From Bacteroidaceae bacterium (GTDB lineage Bacteria; Bacteroidota; Bacteroidia; Bacteroidales; Bacteroidaceae): a stretch of DNA of 64,000 nucleotides. Both the position numbers and the translations under genes were made by a program. The stretch is taken from the NCBI GenBank assembly GCA_017465905.1, contig JAFTVE010000026.1, forward strand, positions 42,478 through 106,477, given 5' to 3'. Position 1 is the stretch's first letter. Each line of letters starts with the position of its first letter. The notes below the pieces were generated by a model. The model was not told the DNA's origin. It did no database searches and worked only from the letters and a program-made list of their open reading frames with translations. Positions 8,836-59,170 of this stretch are shown piece after piece.

Positions 8836-9705
8836 ATGAGTACAAGACAACAACAGATGGAGGCCTTCGGACGCTTTCTTGATGTGCTCGATGAGTTGCG
8901 TGAGAAATGTCCGTGGGACCGCAAGCAGACCAACGAGAGTCTGCGACCCAATACGATAGAGGAGGTATACGAACTGTGCGATGCGCTAATCAATGAGGAT
9001 GATGCCAACATCTGCAAGGAACTGGGCGATGTGTTGCTCCACGTGGCGTTCTATGCCAAAATTGCTTCGGAGAAGGGACAGTTTGATATAAAGGATGTGT
9101 GTGACCGCCTGTGCGACAAACTCATCTTCCGCCATCCTCATGTGTTTCCACCTAAAGAGGAAAGTGTAAAGATAAAAGATGAAAGTTGCCGTCCGGATGG
9201 TAATGACTCTCCACTTTCATCTGTCAACTTTCAACCCGAGAAGGTTACTACGGCGACACAGGTGTCGGAAAACTGGGAACAGCTCAAACTGAAGGAGAAG
9301 GGTGGTAACAAGCGTGTGCTCAGCGGAGTACCCTCAGGATTACCCTCTATAGTGAAAGCATATCGTATCCAGGAGAAGGCTCGCAACGTGGGGTTTGAAT
9401 GGGATGATGCTTCCGGTGCGTGGGAGAAACTGATGGAGGAGATGGAGGAACTGCGCGTGGAACTTGAGCGTGGTGATCATGATCTCGCTGAGGCAGAGTT
9501 GGGCGATTTGCTCTTTGCTACCATTAATGTGGCGCGTATGAATGGACTCAGCCCCGACAATGCGCTGGAACGTACCAATCAGAAGTTTATCCGTCGCTTC
9601 AACTATGTGGAGGAGGGCGCTATTGCTCAAGGACGCAACCTCAAGGATATGACTCTGGAGGAGATGGATGCCTTGTGGGATGAGGCGAAGAGCAAGGGGC
9701 AGTGA
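8836..9705 (+). CDS. mazG: Nucleoside triphosphate pyrophosphohydrolase MazG
   Basis: The protein has two MazG domains. The first holds CPWDRKQT, EEVYE (42-46) and KELGD (61-65), the metal-binding EExxE and ExxD pattern. The second holds EKARNVGFEWDD and EMEELRVELERGD...EAELGDLLFA. MazG hydrolyses NTPs and dNTPs to monophosphates, cleaning the nucleotide pool. It is 289 residues against about 263 for the family. The extra residues (about 108-136) sit between the domains and are encoded by an intergenic-type repeat (9157-9243) read in frame. Both catalytic regions look intact, so it is probably active. Confidence 0.93.
   Translation: MSTRQQQMEAFGRFLDVLDELREKCPWDRKQTNESLRPNTIEEVYELCDALINEDDANICKELGDVLLHVAFYAKIASEKGQFDIKDVCDRLCDKLIFRHPHVFPPKEESVKIKDESCRPDGNDSPLSSVNFQPEKVTTATQVSENWEQLKLKEKGGNKRVLSGVPSGLPSIVKAYRIQEKARNVGFEWDDASGAWEKLMEEMEELRVELERGDHDLAEAELGDLLFATINVARMNGLSPDNALERTNQKFIRRFNYVEEGAIAQGRNLKDMTLEEMDALWDEAKSKGQ
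9157..9243. repeat. Intergenic-type repeat inserted in frame in mazG
   Basis: The segment resembles the AAAGTTGAAAG spacer arms near 6060 and 58070 and contains GCCGTCCGGATGG, also present in the hairpin at 19118-19130. It encodes 29 residues with no counterpart in the usual MazG linker. Confidence 0.6.
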
Positions 9706-9795: not shown

Positions 9796-12501
9796 TTAAA
9801 AACTTGCAAGCGAAACATACCACTCCGTCAGCTCTGTCTTCGGGTAGTAGTGGCGGAGTATTTCTTTGTAGTTGTATCCCTGGGCGCCCATTACGGCAGC
9901 GCCTATCTGGCATAGCCCTACGCCATGTCCCCAGCCTGAGCCGTGGAGGATGAATAAGGGCCTCTCCCCATCCCTCTCCCAAGGAGAGGGGGACTCAGAC
10001 ATCGCGGCACTGCTCTCGGTGGACTCTGCAACTCCCTCTCCTTGGGAGAGGGTTGGGGTGAGGCTTTCTACCTTTTCCACCTCGAAGGCGCTGCTATAGA
10101 GATGACTCTCCGAGAGCGTGCGCCGTATCTCCAGCTCCTTGCCGATGATTCGGGTGGCTTTGGTGCCGACGATTTGTAGACGTACAATACGTCCCGAGGG
10201 ACCGCGCTCAATGGGGATGAGGTCAACGATGTCGCCATAGTCGAATCCTCCGCGACGGCGTACGAGTTCGCTCAGTTCGGCTTGGGTATACTTCACGGTC
10301 CAGCGATAGAAGTCTGTCGACTGGTCGTAGTGGTTGAGTACTTCCGAAAGCACTTTCTTGTCGTTGGTGTTGCAGAAGGGGTCGTCCACAACGCTGAGGT
10401 AGGGATGGGGCGTATCGTCCCAACAGCTCTCATACAGTTCGCTCCTACCACCGCAGCACTTGCTGAACCGGGCATCACAGACTGCTCCCTCGTAGCTGAG
10501 CACGATACCGCGCGTAGCTCGGATGGCCTCAAGAACCTGTGGCGTAACCTTACGGCTTACACCTTGATAGCGTTGGCAATGGTCATCGGCACATACGTCG
10601 AAGTGGGCATGCGCTTCACGGTCGTACCAACGGATAGCCTCCCCCTTACCCCTCCCAAGGAGGGGTGATTCAGACATCGCGGAGGTAATATGGAGAATAA
10701 CATTTTCGATGTTGTCAATAACCTCTTCATTCGTGAAACGCAATGTTCGATATCCTGCTTCTGCTAATAATTTGTCTCGAATTTTGTCTGCTTCTTTTTG
10801 CTTTGGGTTGTTGTGATAACTTCCATCTATTTCGATGATAATATTTAGTGGCAAACAAATGAAATCTACTATGAAATCTCCGATGATATGTTGCCTTCTA
10901 AATCGCACCCCCAACTTCTTCGCACGCAATCTCCCCCAAAGGCGTTTTTCAGCTTCTGTAGGATATCGCTTTTGATTCATTGCATATTCCTTCAATAATA
11001 CATATATGTCAGGGTGTGCCGTTTTGTATTTTTCTATGCTAGGAAGTGGCTTTGGATGAGTGTCAGCGATGTCTGCATCACCCCTCCTTGGGAGGGGCAG
11101 GGGGGAGGCCCCTATCTGTGCCAACAGCCAACTGCGGGAGATGATGGCATGTGCCTTGAGAAGTTCGATGGAAGAGGTACCGCTCATCTCTGAGGCGATG
11201 ACGCTGGTGAGATAGTCTTCAATGGCGATGCGGTTGATGGCATGTAGCTCGCCGTCGATGATGCGTAGGATGAGTGACCCCTGGAAGGTCTGTGTCTCCT
11301 GTTGCTGCCAATGAAACTCCTTGCCGATGGTGACGCTGTGGAGGCTGAAGGTGCTAGTGTCGCCCCCCTCAATAGCGAAGCCCTTGGCTTGTCCAGGAAC
11401 TCTCTTTCGGGGGGAGCCTGCAAACATCACGGTGTCTCCCACGTTGTATGTCGTGCCATTCCTTGTCAGTACGATGGTGTCCTTGCCTGTAGCAGTGTCT
11501 CTGCTTATTGTAGCAGTGTAGGTAATAGATTCTTTTTTATCGGTATCCGAATTACCCCTACCAAGGAGGGGCAGGGAGGAGGTCTCAAACCTGATTTCCT
11601 TCCCTTGCATGATGCCCACATCAATGGTGGGCTCGGTGCGTACGCCTACCTCGCATAATATGTCGAGTGCTTGGGATATGCTGAGACGCTCGTAGTCTTC
11701 GGCTCGTGGGGTCACCAGGAGTCCACACATGTCCAGTGCGCCTGGACTGATGAGGTATTTGCTCTCTCCCTCAGCGGTGTAGCAGCGGGGGCGGTGTGCT
11801 CTGCGTGGGATGACGATGAGGTTGACCTGCTCGCCTTGACGGAAGGCTACCACGTTGATGCACGGCTCGTATTCTCCTTCGGGGATAGGCAGTTGATTGT
11901 ATAGTTGACCGAAGGTGCCGGTACCTTCTGCGTTGCGGATAAGATAAGCCTGATAGCCGAATGGGGCTATTGCTTGTAGATGGCCCATGTCGGTGATGCT
12001 CTTGGCATACTCTACTAAGGGGATTCCTGTACCTATGCCGGCCTGCAGATGTAGATGGTCGGGAGCGGATGCGCCGCACTTGGGGCCGTTATAGAATACG
12101 ATGTACTCCTCAGGCAAGGCCTTGACAGCTTGTATGAGTGAGTCGTATGCTTCGATGATGTTCTGTCGGCGGTGTGTGGTGGATGCTATCGTGTAGTGGC
12201 CTCGCAGGATGGGGAATGGGTTTACCAACCACTCGAAATTCTCGTTCAAGGCAAGGCATTGCTGCTCTTCCGGACGGTTGGCGTGGCAGAGGAAGCAGGG
12301 GCGTGCGGCTATGCTTGTCTTGTCGATGCTTGCACCGGTAGAGACCATCCGTGCCGGGTTGCACTGTACCCGGAGTGCAGTGGGTAGCTTTGCCGAGTGC
12401 AGCTCACGGCTCCATACAGCGTCAAGTGCCTCATTGTTGTCATGGGCTAAAGGCCATTCACGCAGTTGTGCCTCAAAGAATGTTTCTAAGCTGTCGGTCA
12501 T
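9796..12501 (-). CDS. DUF4922 (HIT-like) + SpoIID/LytB protein with three in-frame repeat insertions, one carrying a DUF559 endonuclease domain
   Basis: The 901-residue protein combines two native parts. Residues 1-300 are a DUF4922/HIT-like domain with CFLCHANRPEEQQ and the nucleotide-phosphoryl-transfer motif DHLHLQ. The rest is a SpoIID/LytB-type domain, with INRIAIEDYLTSVIASEMSG, KAHAIISRSWLLAQ, FSKCCGGRSE and the closing GSGWGHGVGLCQIGA. Three pieces are foreign: residues about 306-317 (LLGRG repeat), 465-622 (PLPRRG, a DUF559 PD-(D/E)XK domain, SPLLGRGKG) and 812-847 (LTPTLSQGEG...SPSPWERDG). The frame stays open through all three and the SpoIID motifs resume exactly, so the gene is probably still functional. 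SpoIID domains cleave glycan strands or act on peptidoglycan; the joint role with DUF4922 is unknown. It follows the GT2 gene on the same strand. Confidence 0.85.
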   Translation of the reverse strand: MTDSLETFFEAQLREWPLAHDNNEALDAVWSRELHSAKLPTALRVQCNPARMVSTGASIDKTSIAARPCFLCHANRPEEQQCLALNENFEWLVNPFPILRGHYTIASTTHRRQNIIEAYDSLIQAVKALPEEYIVFYNGPKCGASAPDHLHLQAGIGTGIPLVEYAKSITDMGHLQAIAPFGYQAYLIRNAEGTGTFGQLYNQLPIPEGEYEPCINVVAFRQGEQVNLIVIPRRAHRPRCYTAEGESKYLISPGALDMCGLLVTPRAEDYERLSISQALDILCEVGVRTEPTIDVGIMQGKEIRFETSSLPLLGRGNSDTDKKESITYTATISRDTATGKDTIVLTRNGTTYNVGDTVMFAGSPRKRVPGQAKGFAIEGGDTSTFSLHSVTIGKEFHWQQQETQTFQGSLILRIIDGELHAINRIAIEDYLTSVIASEMSGTSSIELLKAHAIISRSWLLAQIGASPLPLPRRGDADIADTHPKPLPSIEKYKTAHPDIYVLLKEYAMNQKRYPTEAEKRLWGRLRAKKLGVRFRRQHIIGDFIVDFICLPLNIIIEIDGSYHNNPKQKEADKIRDKLLAEAGYRTLRFTNEEVIDNIENVILHITSAMSESPLLGRGKGEAIRWYDREAHAHFDVCADDHCQRYQGVSRKVTPQVLEAIRATRGIVLSYEGAVCDARFSKCCGGRSELYESCWDDTPHPYLSVVDDPFCNTNDKKVLSEVLNHYDQSTDFYRWTVKYTQAELSELVRRRGGFDYGDIVDLIPIERGPSGRIVRLQIVGTKATRIIGKELEIRRTLSESHLYSSAFEVEKVESLTPTLSQGEGVAESTESSAAMSESPSPWERDGERPLFILHGSGWGHGVGLCQIGAAVMGAQGYNYKEILRHYYPKTELTEWYVSLASF
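9960..10064. mobile_element. 105-bp MITE-like element inside the SpoIID gene
   Basis: The ends are 31-bp inverted repeats with 29 matches (GCCTCTCCCCATCC, then CTCTCCCAAGGAGAGGG at the left). Its length is a multiple of three. The interior shares CAGACATCGCGG with the larger DUF559 element, so they belong to one family. Confidence 0.75.
10637..11109 (-). mobile_element. 473-bp element carrying a DUF559 endonuclease frame, inserted in frame in the SpoIID gene
   Basis: The outer 44 bp at 10637-10680 and 11066-11109 are inverted copies with 41 matches, each containing the palindrome CCCCTCCCAAGGAGGGG and ending in CAGACATCGC. The interior encodes a complete DUF559 (Vsr-like) domain from about the internal ATG at 10980: PTEAEKRLWGRLRAKKLG, FRRQHIIGDFIVDFICL, IIIEIDGSYH. 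The Asp and Glu-x-Asp of the PD-(D/E)XK active site are kept. No clear target duplication is seen. Confidence 0.75.
11551..11584. repeat. Short copy of the CCCCTCC-GGAGGGG repeat in the DUF4922-SpoIID gene
   Basis: ACCCCTACCAAGGAGGGG followed by CAGGGAGGAGG resembles one end of the DUF559 element and encodes SSLPLLGRGN in the linker between the two native domains. Confidence 0.6.
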
Positions 12502-33638: not shown

Positions 33639-33682
33639 GCGATGACTGAGTCACCCCTCCTTGGGAGGGGAAGGGGGGAGGC
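33639..33682. repeat. Solitary end of the DUF559-element family overlapping the pth 3' end
   Basis: The 44 bp (GCGATGACTGAGTCACCCCTCC and onward, split at TTGGGAGGGG) match the right terminal repeat of the DUF559 element at 11066-11109 with few differences. The last residues of Pth (LPPSPPKEG) and its stop codon lie in this repeat. Confidence 0.7.
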
Positions 33683-46141: not shown

Positions 46142-46229
46142 TTTCTACCTGCAGGCAGAGCACTTTCTACTTGCAGGTAGAATGGTTTCTATTTGCAGTT
46201 AGAAACATTTCTACTTGCAAGTAGAAACA
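46142..46229. repeat. Four tandem 22-bp palindromic repeats (TTTCTACTTGCAGGTAGAA core)
   Basis: Units at 46142-46163, 46164-46185, 46186-46207 and 46208-46229. Each contains TTTCTAC-TTGCA-GTAGAA or a close variant, itself a dyad. Regular spacing of two DNA turns fits an operator or iteron array. Confidence 0.85.
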
Positions 46230-57982: not shown

Positions 57983-58217
57983 TATAATCGGTCAGGTATG
58001 CAGCTTCGTGATGAAGTATGTCGTGCCGCGTAAAATAGCGTTTAGTATCTAAATCGTCAAGACCATAAAAGTTGAAAGTTGAAAGAGGAAAGATGAAAGT
58101 TGAGAATTCATAATTCAGAATTCAAATTTCAGAATTCAAGAAAGTGTTACTTGATGATTGGTAAGAATCAAGAGTTACAAAAAAGAAAGTAAACGAACAA
58201 ACAAAACATTAAACAAA
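57983..58217. repeat. rpsB leader region containing two spacer-repeat families
   Basis: 235 bp with AAGTTGAAAGTTGAAAG units (58068-58100) running into AATTCATAATTCAGAATTC units (58103-58140), then an A-rich segment before the rpsB ATG. The repeats seem to have entered the leader of an essential operon. Confidence 0.55.
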
Positions 58218-59051
58218 ATGTCTAGAACAAATTTTGAAACATTACTGGAGGCTGGTTGTCATTTCGGTCACTTGAAGCGCAAATGGAACCCCGCAATGGC
58301 TCCCTATATCTTCATGGAGCGCAATGGTATTCACATCATTGACCTTCATAAGACAGCCGCTATGGCTGACACTGCCGCTGAGGCACTCAAGCAAATCGCT
58401 AAATCAGGAAAGAAAATCCTGTTTGTTGCTACTAAAAAACAAGCTAAGCAAGTACTCGCCGAGAAGGCTACTGCTGTAGGCATGCCCTACGTAATCGAGC
58501 GTTGGCCCGGTGGTATGCTCACCAACTTCCCCACAATCCGCAAGGCTGTGAAGAAGATGGCTACTATCGACAAACTCACCGCTGACGGTACATTCTCAAA
58601 CCTCTCAAAGCGTGAGATCCTCCAGATCTCTCGTCAGCGTGCCAAGTTGGAGAAGAACCTTGGTTCTATCGCCGACCTGACTCGTCTCCCCTCTGCACTT
58701 TTCGTAGTAGACGTATGCAAGGAGAACATCGCTGTACGTGAGGCTAACCGTCTCGGTATCCCCGTATTCGCTATCGTAGATACTAACTCAGATCCTTCAA
58801 ACATCGACTTCGTAATCCCCGCTAACGATGACGCTACAAAGTCTATCGAGGTAATCCTCGATGCTTGCTGCGCTGCTATCGCTGAGGGTCTCGAGGAGCG
58901 TAAGGCTGAGAAGGTAGATATGGAAGCTGCTGGCGAAGGTGAGGAGGATGCTCCCAAGGCTCGTCCCGCCCGCAAGCGCACCGCTAAGGCTCGTGTAGAG
59001 AAGACCGAGGCTACTGCTGAGGAGACTGCTGCACCTGCTGAGGAGGCGTAA
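58218..59051 (+). CDS. rpsB: 30S ribosomal protein S2
   Basis: The ATG at 58218 (MSRTNFETLLEAGCHFGHLKRKW region) was chosen; the frame extends 20 codons upstream without similarity. The protein (277 residues) has the S2 signatures ERNGIHIIDLHKT, RWPGGMLTNFPTIRKAV and LGIPVFAIVDTNSDPSNIDFVIPANDDA. The C-terminal 45 residues are an Ala/Glu/Lys/Thr-rich tail (RKRTAKARVEKTEATAEET). tsf follows after a repeat spacer, as is usual. Confidence 0.96.
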   Translation: MSRTNFETLLEAGCHFGHLKRKWNPAMAPYIFMERNGIHIIDLHKTAAMADTAAEALKQIAKSGKKILFVATKKQAKQVLAEKATAVGMPYVIERWPGGMLTNFPTIRKAVKKMATIDKLTADGTFSNLSKREILQISRQRAKLEKNLGSIADLTRLPSALFVVDVCKENIAVREANRLGIPVFAIVDTNSDPSNIDFVIPANDDATKSIEVILDACCAAIAEGLEERKAEKVDMEAAGEGEEDAPKARPARKRTAKARVEKTEATAEETAAPAEEA

Positions 59052-59170
59052 ATAATTCCTAATTATGAATTATGAATTATGAGCCGTCCGCTCCATAATC
59101 ATTGTTCGTAATTCATAATTTATTTTTAAATTCAGAATTCATAATTAACAATTCAAAATTATAAAATATT
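59052..59170. repeat. Inverted-arm AATTATGAATT spacer between rpsB and tsf
   Basis: TAATTATGAATTATGAATTA is mirrored by AATTCATAATT units at 59110-59160. The middle contains GCCGTCCG, shared in part with the mazG insert and the hairpin at 19120. Confidence 0.55.

Follow-up and report, generated by a model that had tools for sequence, protein, structure and literature searches.

A DUF559 nuclease domain bounded by inverted palindromic repeats and read in frame within protein genes: a candidate homing-type element of Bacteroidota and other phyla

Homing nucleases are thought to need either splicing or an intergenic home to be harmless. Repetitive extragenic palindromic (REP) sequences occur as short palindromic single units and inverted doublets (REPINs), and two inverted units can enclose the gene of a RAYT, which is a Y1 HUH transposase. 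One report describes the EDxHD homing endonucleases as long multi-domain proteins that act as dimers on a target of nearly 60 bp (PMC3943268); a section on inteins in a second paper places a DUF559 gene in this family (PMC9403480). Here we analyzed 64,000 nucleotides (nt) of contig JAFTVE010000026.1 from a gut bacterium of the Bacteroidaceae (assembly GCA_017465905.1), called the window below, in which a segment encoding a DUF559 domain lies between two inverted palindromic repeats inside a SpoIID gene and is read in frame with it. The mobility of this segment is well supported by comparison with other loci, and we put at about 0.6 the probability that it is a mobile element with REP-like ends which spreads mainly by homing-type cutting, without splicing. 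The family to which it would belong is widespread, and appears to consist of two inverted REP-like palindromic units around one small EDxHD/Vsr-like (DUF559) nuclease gene. Its apparent habitats are intergenic gaps and, for one large subfamily, protein genes, in which it is read in frame as an extra domain. The comparison covers the anatomy of the elements, their recurrence in unrelated hosts and phyla, occupied and unoccupied sites, one dispersed pair and selection on the nuclease. In the literature searched, which left most subscription journals outside and in which absence is no proof, no description of a palindrome-ended DUF559 element was found.

The locus shares features with several described systems. 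Like the EDxHD homing endonucleases, it has a nuclease related in sequence to 3r3p (E 1e-6), which we take to be I-Bth0305I, and it occupies a conserved site patchily; it differs in that there is no intron, the insert is read in frame, the ends are palindromic and the nuclease is a single small domain. As with inteins that carry a homing endonuclease, the residence is in frame beside conserved motifs of essential proteins, but no intein family was detected in 50 chimeric proteins by Pfam at E limits of 0.01 to 1e-8, splicing motifs not being searched otherwise. With REP/REPIN and RAYT the locus shares short palindromes that occur singly and as inverted doublets, and a gene that lies between two inverted units; here, however, that gene is a DUF559 nuclease, and the units also occur in frame inside genes. 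A DUF559 locus of Sinorhizobium (arm score 9.0, on the scale given below) lies beside a two-armed palindromic repeat, presumably RIME, one arm of which resembles some Bacteroidota arms by eye; unlike the element in the window, that repeat holds no nuclease. For a comparison with insertion sequences and miniature inverted-repeat transposable elements, the marks to look for are a transposase and a target-site duplication; the Pfam scan found no transposase inside the window element. Rickettsia palindromic elements are also palindromic and inserted in frame in unrelated protein genes. They are described as measuring about 150 bp, each with a short conserved peptide, and no nuclease is mentioned in the passages that treat them (PMC10969869), whereas the insert here encodes a conserved nuclease that is under purifying selection.

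The features of the window that concern the element are as follows, with positions counted from the first letter of the window.

9796..12501, reverse strand: host gene of 901 amino acids (aa), DUF4922 and SpoIID with the element inside (open frame; Pfam)
10637..11109, reverse strand: inserted element, 473 nt between the outer arm ends, read in frame (an inverted arm at each end; relatives lack it or have something else in its place)
10637..10683, no strand: inverted arm that bounds the element on its 3′ side (gene sense), with outer box, hairpin 10649-10665 and tail
11063..11109, no strand: inverted arm that bounds the element on its 5′ side (gene sense), with hairpin 11081-11097
10678..10992, reverse strand: DUF559 (Vsr/EDxHD-like) nuclease domain, residues 504-608 (PF04480, E 6e-30; invariant positions)
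10993..11028, reverse strand: N-terminal extension YKTAHPDIYVLL, in form like the in-frame copies of other hosts (by eye from sequences)
9960..10064, no strand: nuclease-free inverted doublet of a related palindrome, within the open frame that also holds the element (repeat search)
11541..11582, no strand: single palindromic unit, in the same open frame as the element (repeat search)
33654..33670, no strand: single palindromic unit in the C-terminal end of the frame for peptidyl-tRNA hydrolase (palindrome search)

An earlier note, made from the DNA letters alone, had described two inverted repeats of 44 bp with 41 matches around the DUF559 segment. By blastn, the arms aligned over 44 nt at 93.2%, with 41 matches, and ungapped extension gave 47 nt at 91% (10637-10683 and 11063-11109). 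Each arm consists of an outer box (GCCTCCCCC..), a hairpin (CCCCTCCCAAGGAGGGG) and then a tail. The host frame is open through the insert, as the note had said. Pfam placed DUF4922 at residues 8-155, SpoIID at 417-471 as the best of two stretches, and DUF559 at 504-608 between parts of SpoIID. The DUF559 score was 103.8 bits against a curated cut-off of 20.6 (PF04480; the E value is for the whole protein); aside from weak further matches to MTES_1575 and DUF2726, it was the only family that Pfam reported within the element. The smaller nuclease-free copies that the note had seen are the two in the same gene and the one at peptidyl-tRNA hydrolase. With up to three mismatches allowed, the window has 7 occurrences of the palindrome CCCCTCCNWNGGAGGGG; the average over 100 shuffles was 0.90, and no shuffle reached 7. 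The hairpin pattern has 21 exact copies in the assembly and the reversed pattern has 0. The palindrome copies of the assembly are single units and inverted pairs, several of the pairs having starts 43 nt apart.

The nuclease domain is intact. Ten positions (E35, W39, R53, Q54, D63, F64, E74, D76, H80 and D89) are invariant in 49 aligned DUF559 domains from several phyla, and the catalytic residues are presumably among them. Between the inserts of the genomes G000 and G018, the ratio of nonsynonymous to synonymous substitution rates (dN/dS) was 0.21. Among five SpoIID inserts, the proportion of nonsynonymous differences was lower than that of synonymous differences in all ten pairs, the latter being near saturation in nine. 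These values indicate that the domain is under purifying selection. The 49-domain profile matched the solved structures 3hrl (Endonuclease-Like Protein) at E 8e-33 and 3r3p (Mobile intron protein) at the value given above, and PvuRts1 I weakly (E 0.006). With alignment A2 as query, no relative was found in viral contigs; nine phage records matched, all at less than 60% identity.

Flanks at other loci were compared by taking, for each DUF559 domain, the highest-scoring inverted match between its two 300-nt flanks; a score of at least 14 was taken as a pass. Set A was 60 of the stronger matches, picked by hand and not at random, of which one was dropped for a short flank; set B was the best 80 of 476, with one dropped. 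In Bacteroidota, 38 of 59 loci passed in set A and 30 of 79 in set B. Shifted control windows passed in 10 of 918 and 5 of 1115 cases, respectively (9 of 1085 in an earlier run of set A), and small open reading frames of the same loci in 5 of 568 and 4 of 502. From 45 plasmid records with a match in other phyla, 20 loci were fetched and 19 scored, L102 being omitted as an E. coli locus like L103. Among these loci of Pseudomonadota, Deinococcota and Cyanobacteriota, 14 passed, against 8 of 256 controls; two of the passes were marginal (L167, 14.0; L104, 14.5). The tie between DUF559 and inverted repeats, one of the checks proposed in the earlier note, is therefore general. By eye, the arm style is often alike across phyla, with a C-rich box and a C-rich hairpin; examples are Deinococcus and a Sphingomonas DUF559 gene between sufB and sufC. 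Within one operon, the hpa cluster, the genes on either side of DUF559 differ among three Deinococcus species, as does the gene content of the cluster. The gap that holds DUF559 in NW-56 does not exist in D. proteolyticus, the two genes there overlapping each other.

In the genome scan, 70 of 80 named loci had an open frame of at least 100 aa on both sides of DUF559, a share that reflects the subfamily used as query. The hosts scanned are given here by short names read from their Pfam domains. Internal inserts were found in RecG, PriA, LeuRS (two sites), ValRS, IleRS (two sites), MetH, PurL, a methylmalonyl-CoA mutase fusion, HsdR, HsdM, type ISP and Eco57I-like restriction-modification proteins, and UvrA-like, ABC-F-like, MazG, DegT and M23 proteins. 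DUF559 is on the N-terminal side in guanylate kinase, an aconitase-family protein, HemF, RNase H and SDR, and on the C-terminal side in FGase. Grouped by host and position, the 101 unique in-frame domains (of 204 unique domains) formed 26 clusters, a rough count because homologous hosts (LeuRS/ValRS/IleRS; RecG/PriA) are merged. Against solved structures, the inserts are about 150 aa: residues 549 to 697 of the LeuRS chimera L145 correspond to LeuRS 489 to 493, and residues 426 to 579 of the RecG chimera L165 to RecG 515 to 519. In five genomes, chosen for having the LeuRS chimera, the sole strong LeuRS match was the interrupted one in all five. Each also had a weak second match in a frame of 878-910 aa, which is probably ValRS or IleRS. 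One IleRS-like gene (L243, 4236-8561) has two DUF559 stretches.

A frequent position of the inserts is just before a conserved motif: the TATP motif in RecG and PriA, the TTRPET, TTRADT or TTTPWT stretch in ValRS, LeuRS and IleRS, ATVKGDVHDIG in MetH, and the P-loop in HsdR and guanylate kinase. This is a reading of listed examples and not a count; it is not plainly followed in HsdR L077, at the second LeuRS site and at the second IleRS site. The placement suggests either that the element homes to conserved DNA or that loops ahead of core strands are tolerant. At the target junctions of the Deinococcus operon and RecG, no evident target-site duplication was seen by eye in a non-systematic inspection.

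Occupied and unoccupied sites can be compared in RecG. RecG was matched in 58 of 60 genomes of one family: in two the match ran across the insert, and in 56 it was split into two adjoining pieces, with breaks near residues 425 and 574. When 30 loci were read, two were occupied, with 546 and 537 nt between two motifs. In the 28 unoccupied loci, the same motifs were separated by exactly 102 nt in 24 cases and by 120-138 nt in four. Short in-frame extensions were noted at the otherwise empty site in L301, L309, L311 and L314, and possibly such extensions are remnants of lost inserts.

The SpoIID site is polymorphic within the genus, where the earlier note had proposed a search for relatives lacking the insert; such relatives exist. 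Among 19 genomes, the site was readable in 16. A DUF559 insert was present in the SpoIID linker of five (G000, G005, G007, G009 and G018). In G002, the linker holds 47 nt that include a single palindrome of the family seen in the window element, and in G001, G008 and G017 it holds a palindrome of different sequence. A+T-rich filler is found at the DUF559 site in G004 (L010), G006 (L009), G010 (L011) and G014 (L021); thus, the linker accepts several kinds of repeat. No such repeat was seen in the linkers of G003, G013 and G015. On the host-gene tree, some nodes of which are weak, carriers are interleaved with non-carriers. Both arms of the G009 insert carry another palindrome than the one counted in that genome, and its DUF559 is nearest to a RecG-borne copy of Tenacibaculum (L185), not to the other SpoIID copies. 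Therefore, the G009 insert may be a separate insertion. The five SpoIID-insert genomes hold 18-39 palindrome copies, and the other 14 hold 0-8.

How the element spreads was considered from the relations among copies. For 75 of the 84 in-frame domains that have a cluster partner, the nearest neighbour is in the same host-site cluster, a share somewhat generous because of the merged hosts. Some distant RecG pairs have DUF559 domains far more alike than their RecG (0.755 vs 0.569), and in others they are far less alike. Discordant pairs of either kind may reflect transfer or replacement at the same site. In four multi-copy genomes, from which 19 copies were fetched, the domains are mostly 35-63% alike, with one dispersed pair near 92%. 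This pair (L263/L264, one genome) shares 490 nt at 85.5%, and outside this stretch only short repeat matches of 39-50 nt were found. Another candidate pair, L126/L136, was rejected, being one orthologous site with extra repeats between. The idea that the arms of one element are more alike than other arms of the genome was dropped, as it was true in only 9 of the 19 cases.

Several observations weigh against homing-type spread of a palindrome-ended element. Among RecG-borne copies, DUF559 identity follows RecG identity (r 0.70; Mantel p 0.0005), and the means are equal (0.715 for RecG and 0.708 for DUF559); descent therefore matters, and much of the RecG pattern may be descent. In other RecG pairs, DUF559 is far less alike than RecG (0.67 vs 0.853). 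No arm pair reached the threshold at 21 of 59, 49 of 79 and 5 of 19 DUF559 loci. The palindrome occurs in genomes in which no DUF559 was found (5 copies in G004, 8 in G006 and 7 in G014, all incomplete assemblies), and the arms of the G009 insert differ in sequence from the palindrome counted there. No recognition site emerged, nor was any cutting, homing or transposition seen.

In the favoured explanation, the nuclease would cut an unoccupied allele or a similar ectopic site. Repair of the break would copy the element in, so that it would reach the same site of further genomes by homing and occasionally establish itself at a new one. Each hairpin equals its own reverse complement; the two could therefore recombine with each other, with loss of the nuclease, and a box-hairpin-box would be left, a single palindrome as in G002. 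Single and doublet palindromes elsewhere in the genome would have arisen as remnants of this kind or as non-autonomous copies.

The alternative that survives best is REP/RAYT-like action, in which the nuclease would act on the palindromic ends as hairpin or cruciform, move or copy the element and mobilise single and doublet palindromes in trans. The earlier note had drawn this analogy. The presence of both single units and inverted doublets, as in REPs and REPINs, is consistent with it, as are the richness in palindromes of the SpoIID-insert genomes and the interleaving of carriers with non-carriers. In addition, in G184 the own arm pair was the best match, against the arms of other elements, in four of five elements, with one tie. 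However, the link with copy number is confounded by relatedness and unequal completeness, several tree branches being weak, and the own-arm match was best in only 9 of the 19 elements of the four genomes, which reduces the weight of this explanation. To our knowledge, the DUF559 family has no strand-transfer or HUH chemistry. The in-frame copies stay at their host sites and Pfam detected no transposase, so that the RAYT-like spread of the note is not shown; it is possible, although rather unlikely, and second best. We prefer homing-type spread on account of the site fidelity, the RecG pairs, the mostly dissimilar copies and the arm matches. The note's further idea, that the ends are tuned for read-through, was not clearly supported. 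The 102 of 114 arms that were at least 24 nt were compared with 200 shuffles. Open frames made up 0.823 in the 48 in-frame arms and 0.801 after shuffling, the observed value being reached by 25 of the 200 shuffles; in the 54 stand-alone arms they made up 0.667 and, after shuffling, 0.619, with 6 of the 200 reaching the observed value. The excess is small at most.

Less probable still are old domain fusions. In this reading, host proteins would have taken up DUF559 as a useful domain on a few occasions, and the palindromes would be separate repeats that can live in linkers and gaps. The correlation of RecG and DUF559 identities agrees with such fusions, and the RecG-borne L152, L158 and L165 score at control level in the arm test (8.5-9.5). 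The SpoIID linker is also permissive, since other repeats are found there in relatives. Nevertheless, inverted arms surround the domain in many unrelated hosts, the in-frame domains fall into many host-site clusters, occupancy is patchy with short unoccupied sites, and in Deinococcus DUF559 lies between different genes of one operon, which makes the fusions doubtful. A repair or defence gene moving by ordinary gene transfer is very improbable, since residence in frame in tRNA synthetases, RecG and MetH and the paired palindromic ends would be unexplained, although several hosts are restriction-modification genes, one methylase-like gene lies beside brxC, and a role in mismatch repair has been proposed for the Caulobacter DUF559 protein VsrA (PMC12907096).

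Other observations concern individual loci. In the window, the linker of a MazG-like gene (8836-9705) contains an A+T-rich inverted repeat (9168-9231) that is read in frame; the same linker has a DUF559 insert in a Prevotella metagenome-assembled genome (L186). Further inverted repeats are at 46164-46227 (a 28-nt pair) and 58084-59162 (A+T-rich pairs). In Pseudanabaena (L294, 2879-7744), the large methylase-like gene beside brxC has DUF559 with 55-nt inverted arms. An HsdR gene (L092, 175-3315) has both GIY-YIG and DUF559 domains; the GIY-YIG part was ruled out as a similar insert, as no inverted arms surround it. In the E. coli order sapF-ycjD-fabI (L169-L172), ycjD is a DUF559 gene; it scored 10, the control level, in the arm test. 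One place covering at least 80% of the ycjD query was found in 3333 of 5426 genomes. This locus was rejected as a clean empty site, since the two genomes without ycjD that were read have other genes after sapF. The Azospirillum brasilense group was likewise set aside as a polymorphic site: all seven Azospirillum records cover at least 99% of the query, and no empty site was found.

A wider proposal is that these elements are a distinct selfish class: an unspliced homing nuclease that lives as a translated domain in essential proteins, is bounded by its own REP-like palindromes and also scatters these over the genome as single and doublet repeats. We advance this tentatively and think it less likely to hold than to fail. 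If it is true, one nuclease family would have left its footprints in many bacterial genomes as their common G+C-rich palindromes. The known occupied and unoccupied sites make the hypothesis directly testable. The nuclease is a passenger domain beside conserved motifs in enzymes such as the apparently sole leucyl-tRNA synthetase of a cell. If the spread is by homing, this would be a further way for a selfish gene to inhabit essential genes; it would also supply proteins with new domains and might be what drives the abundance of palindromic repeats.

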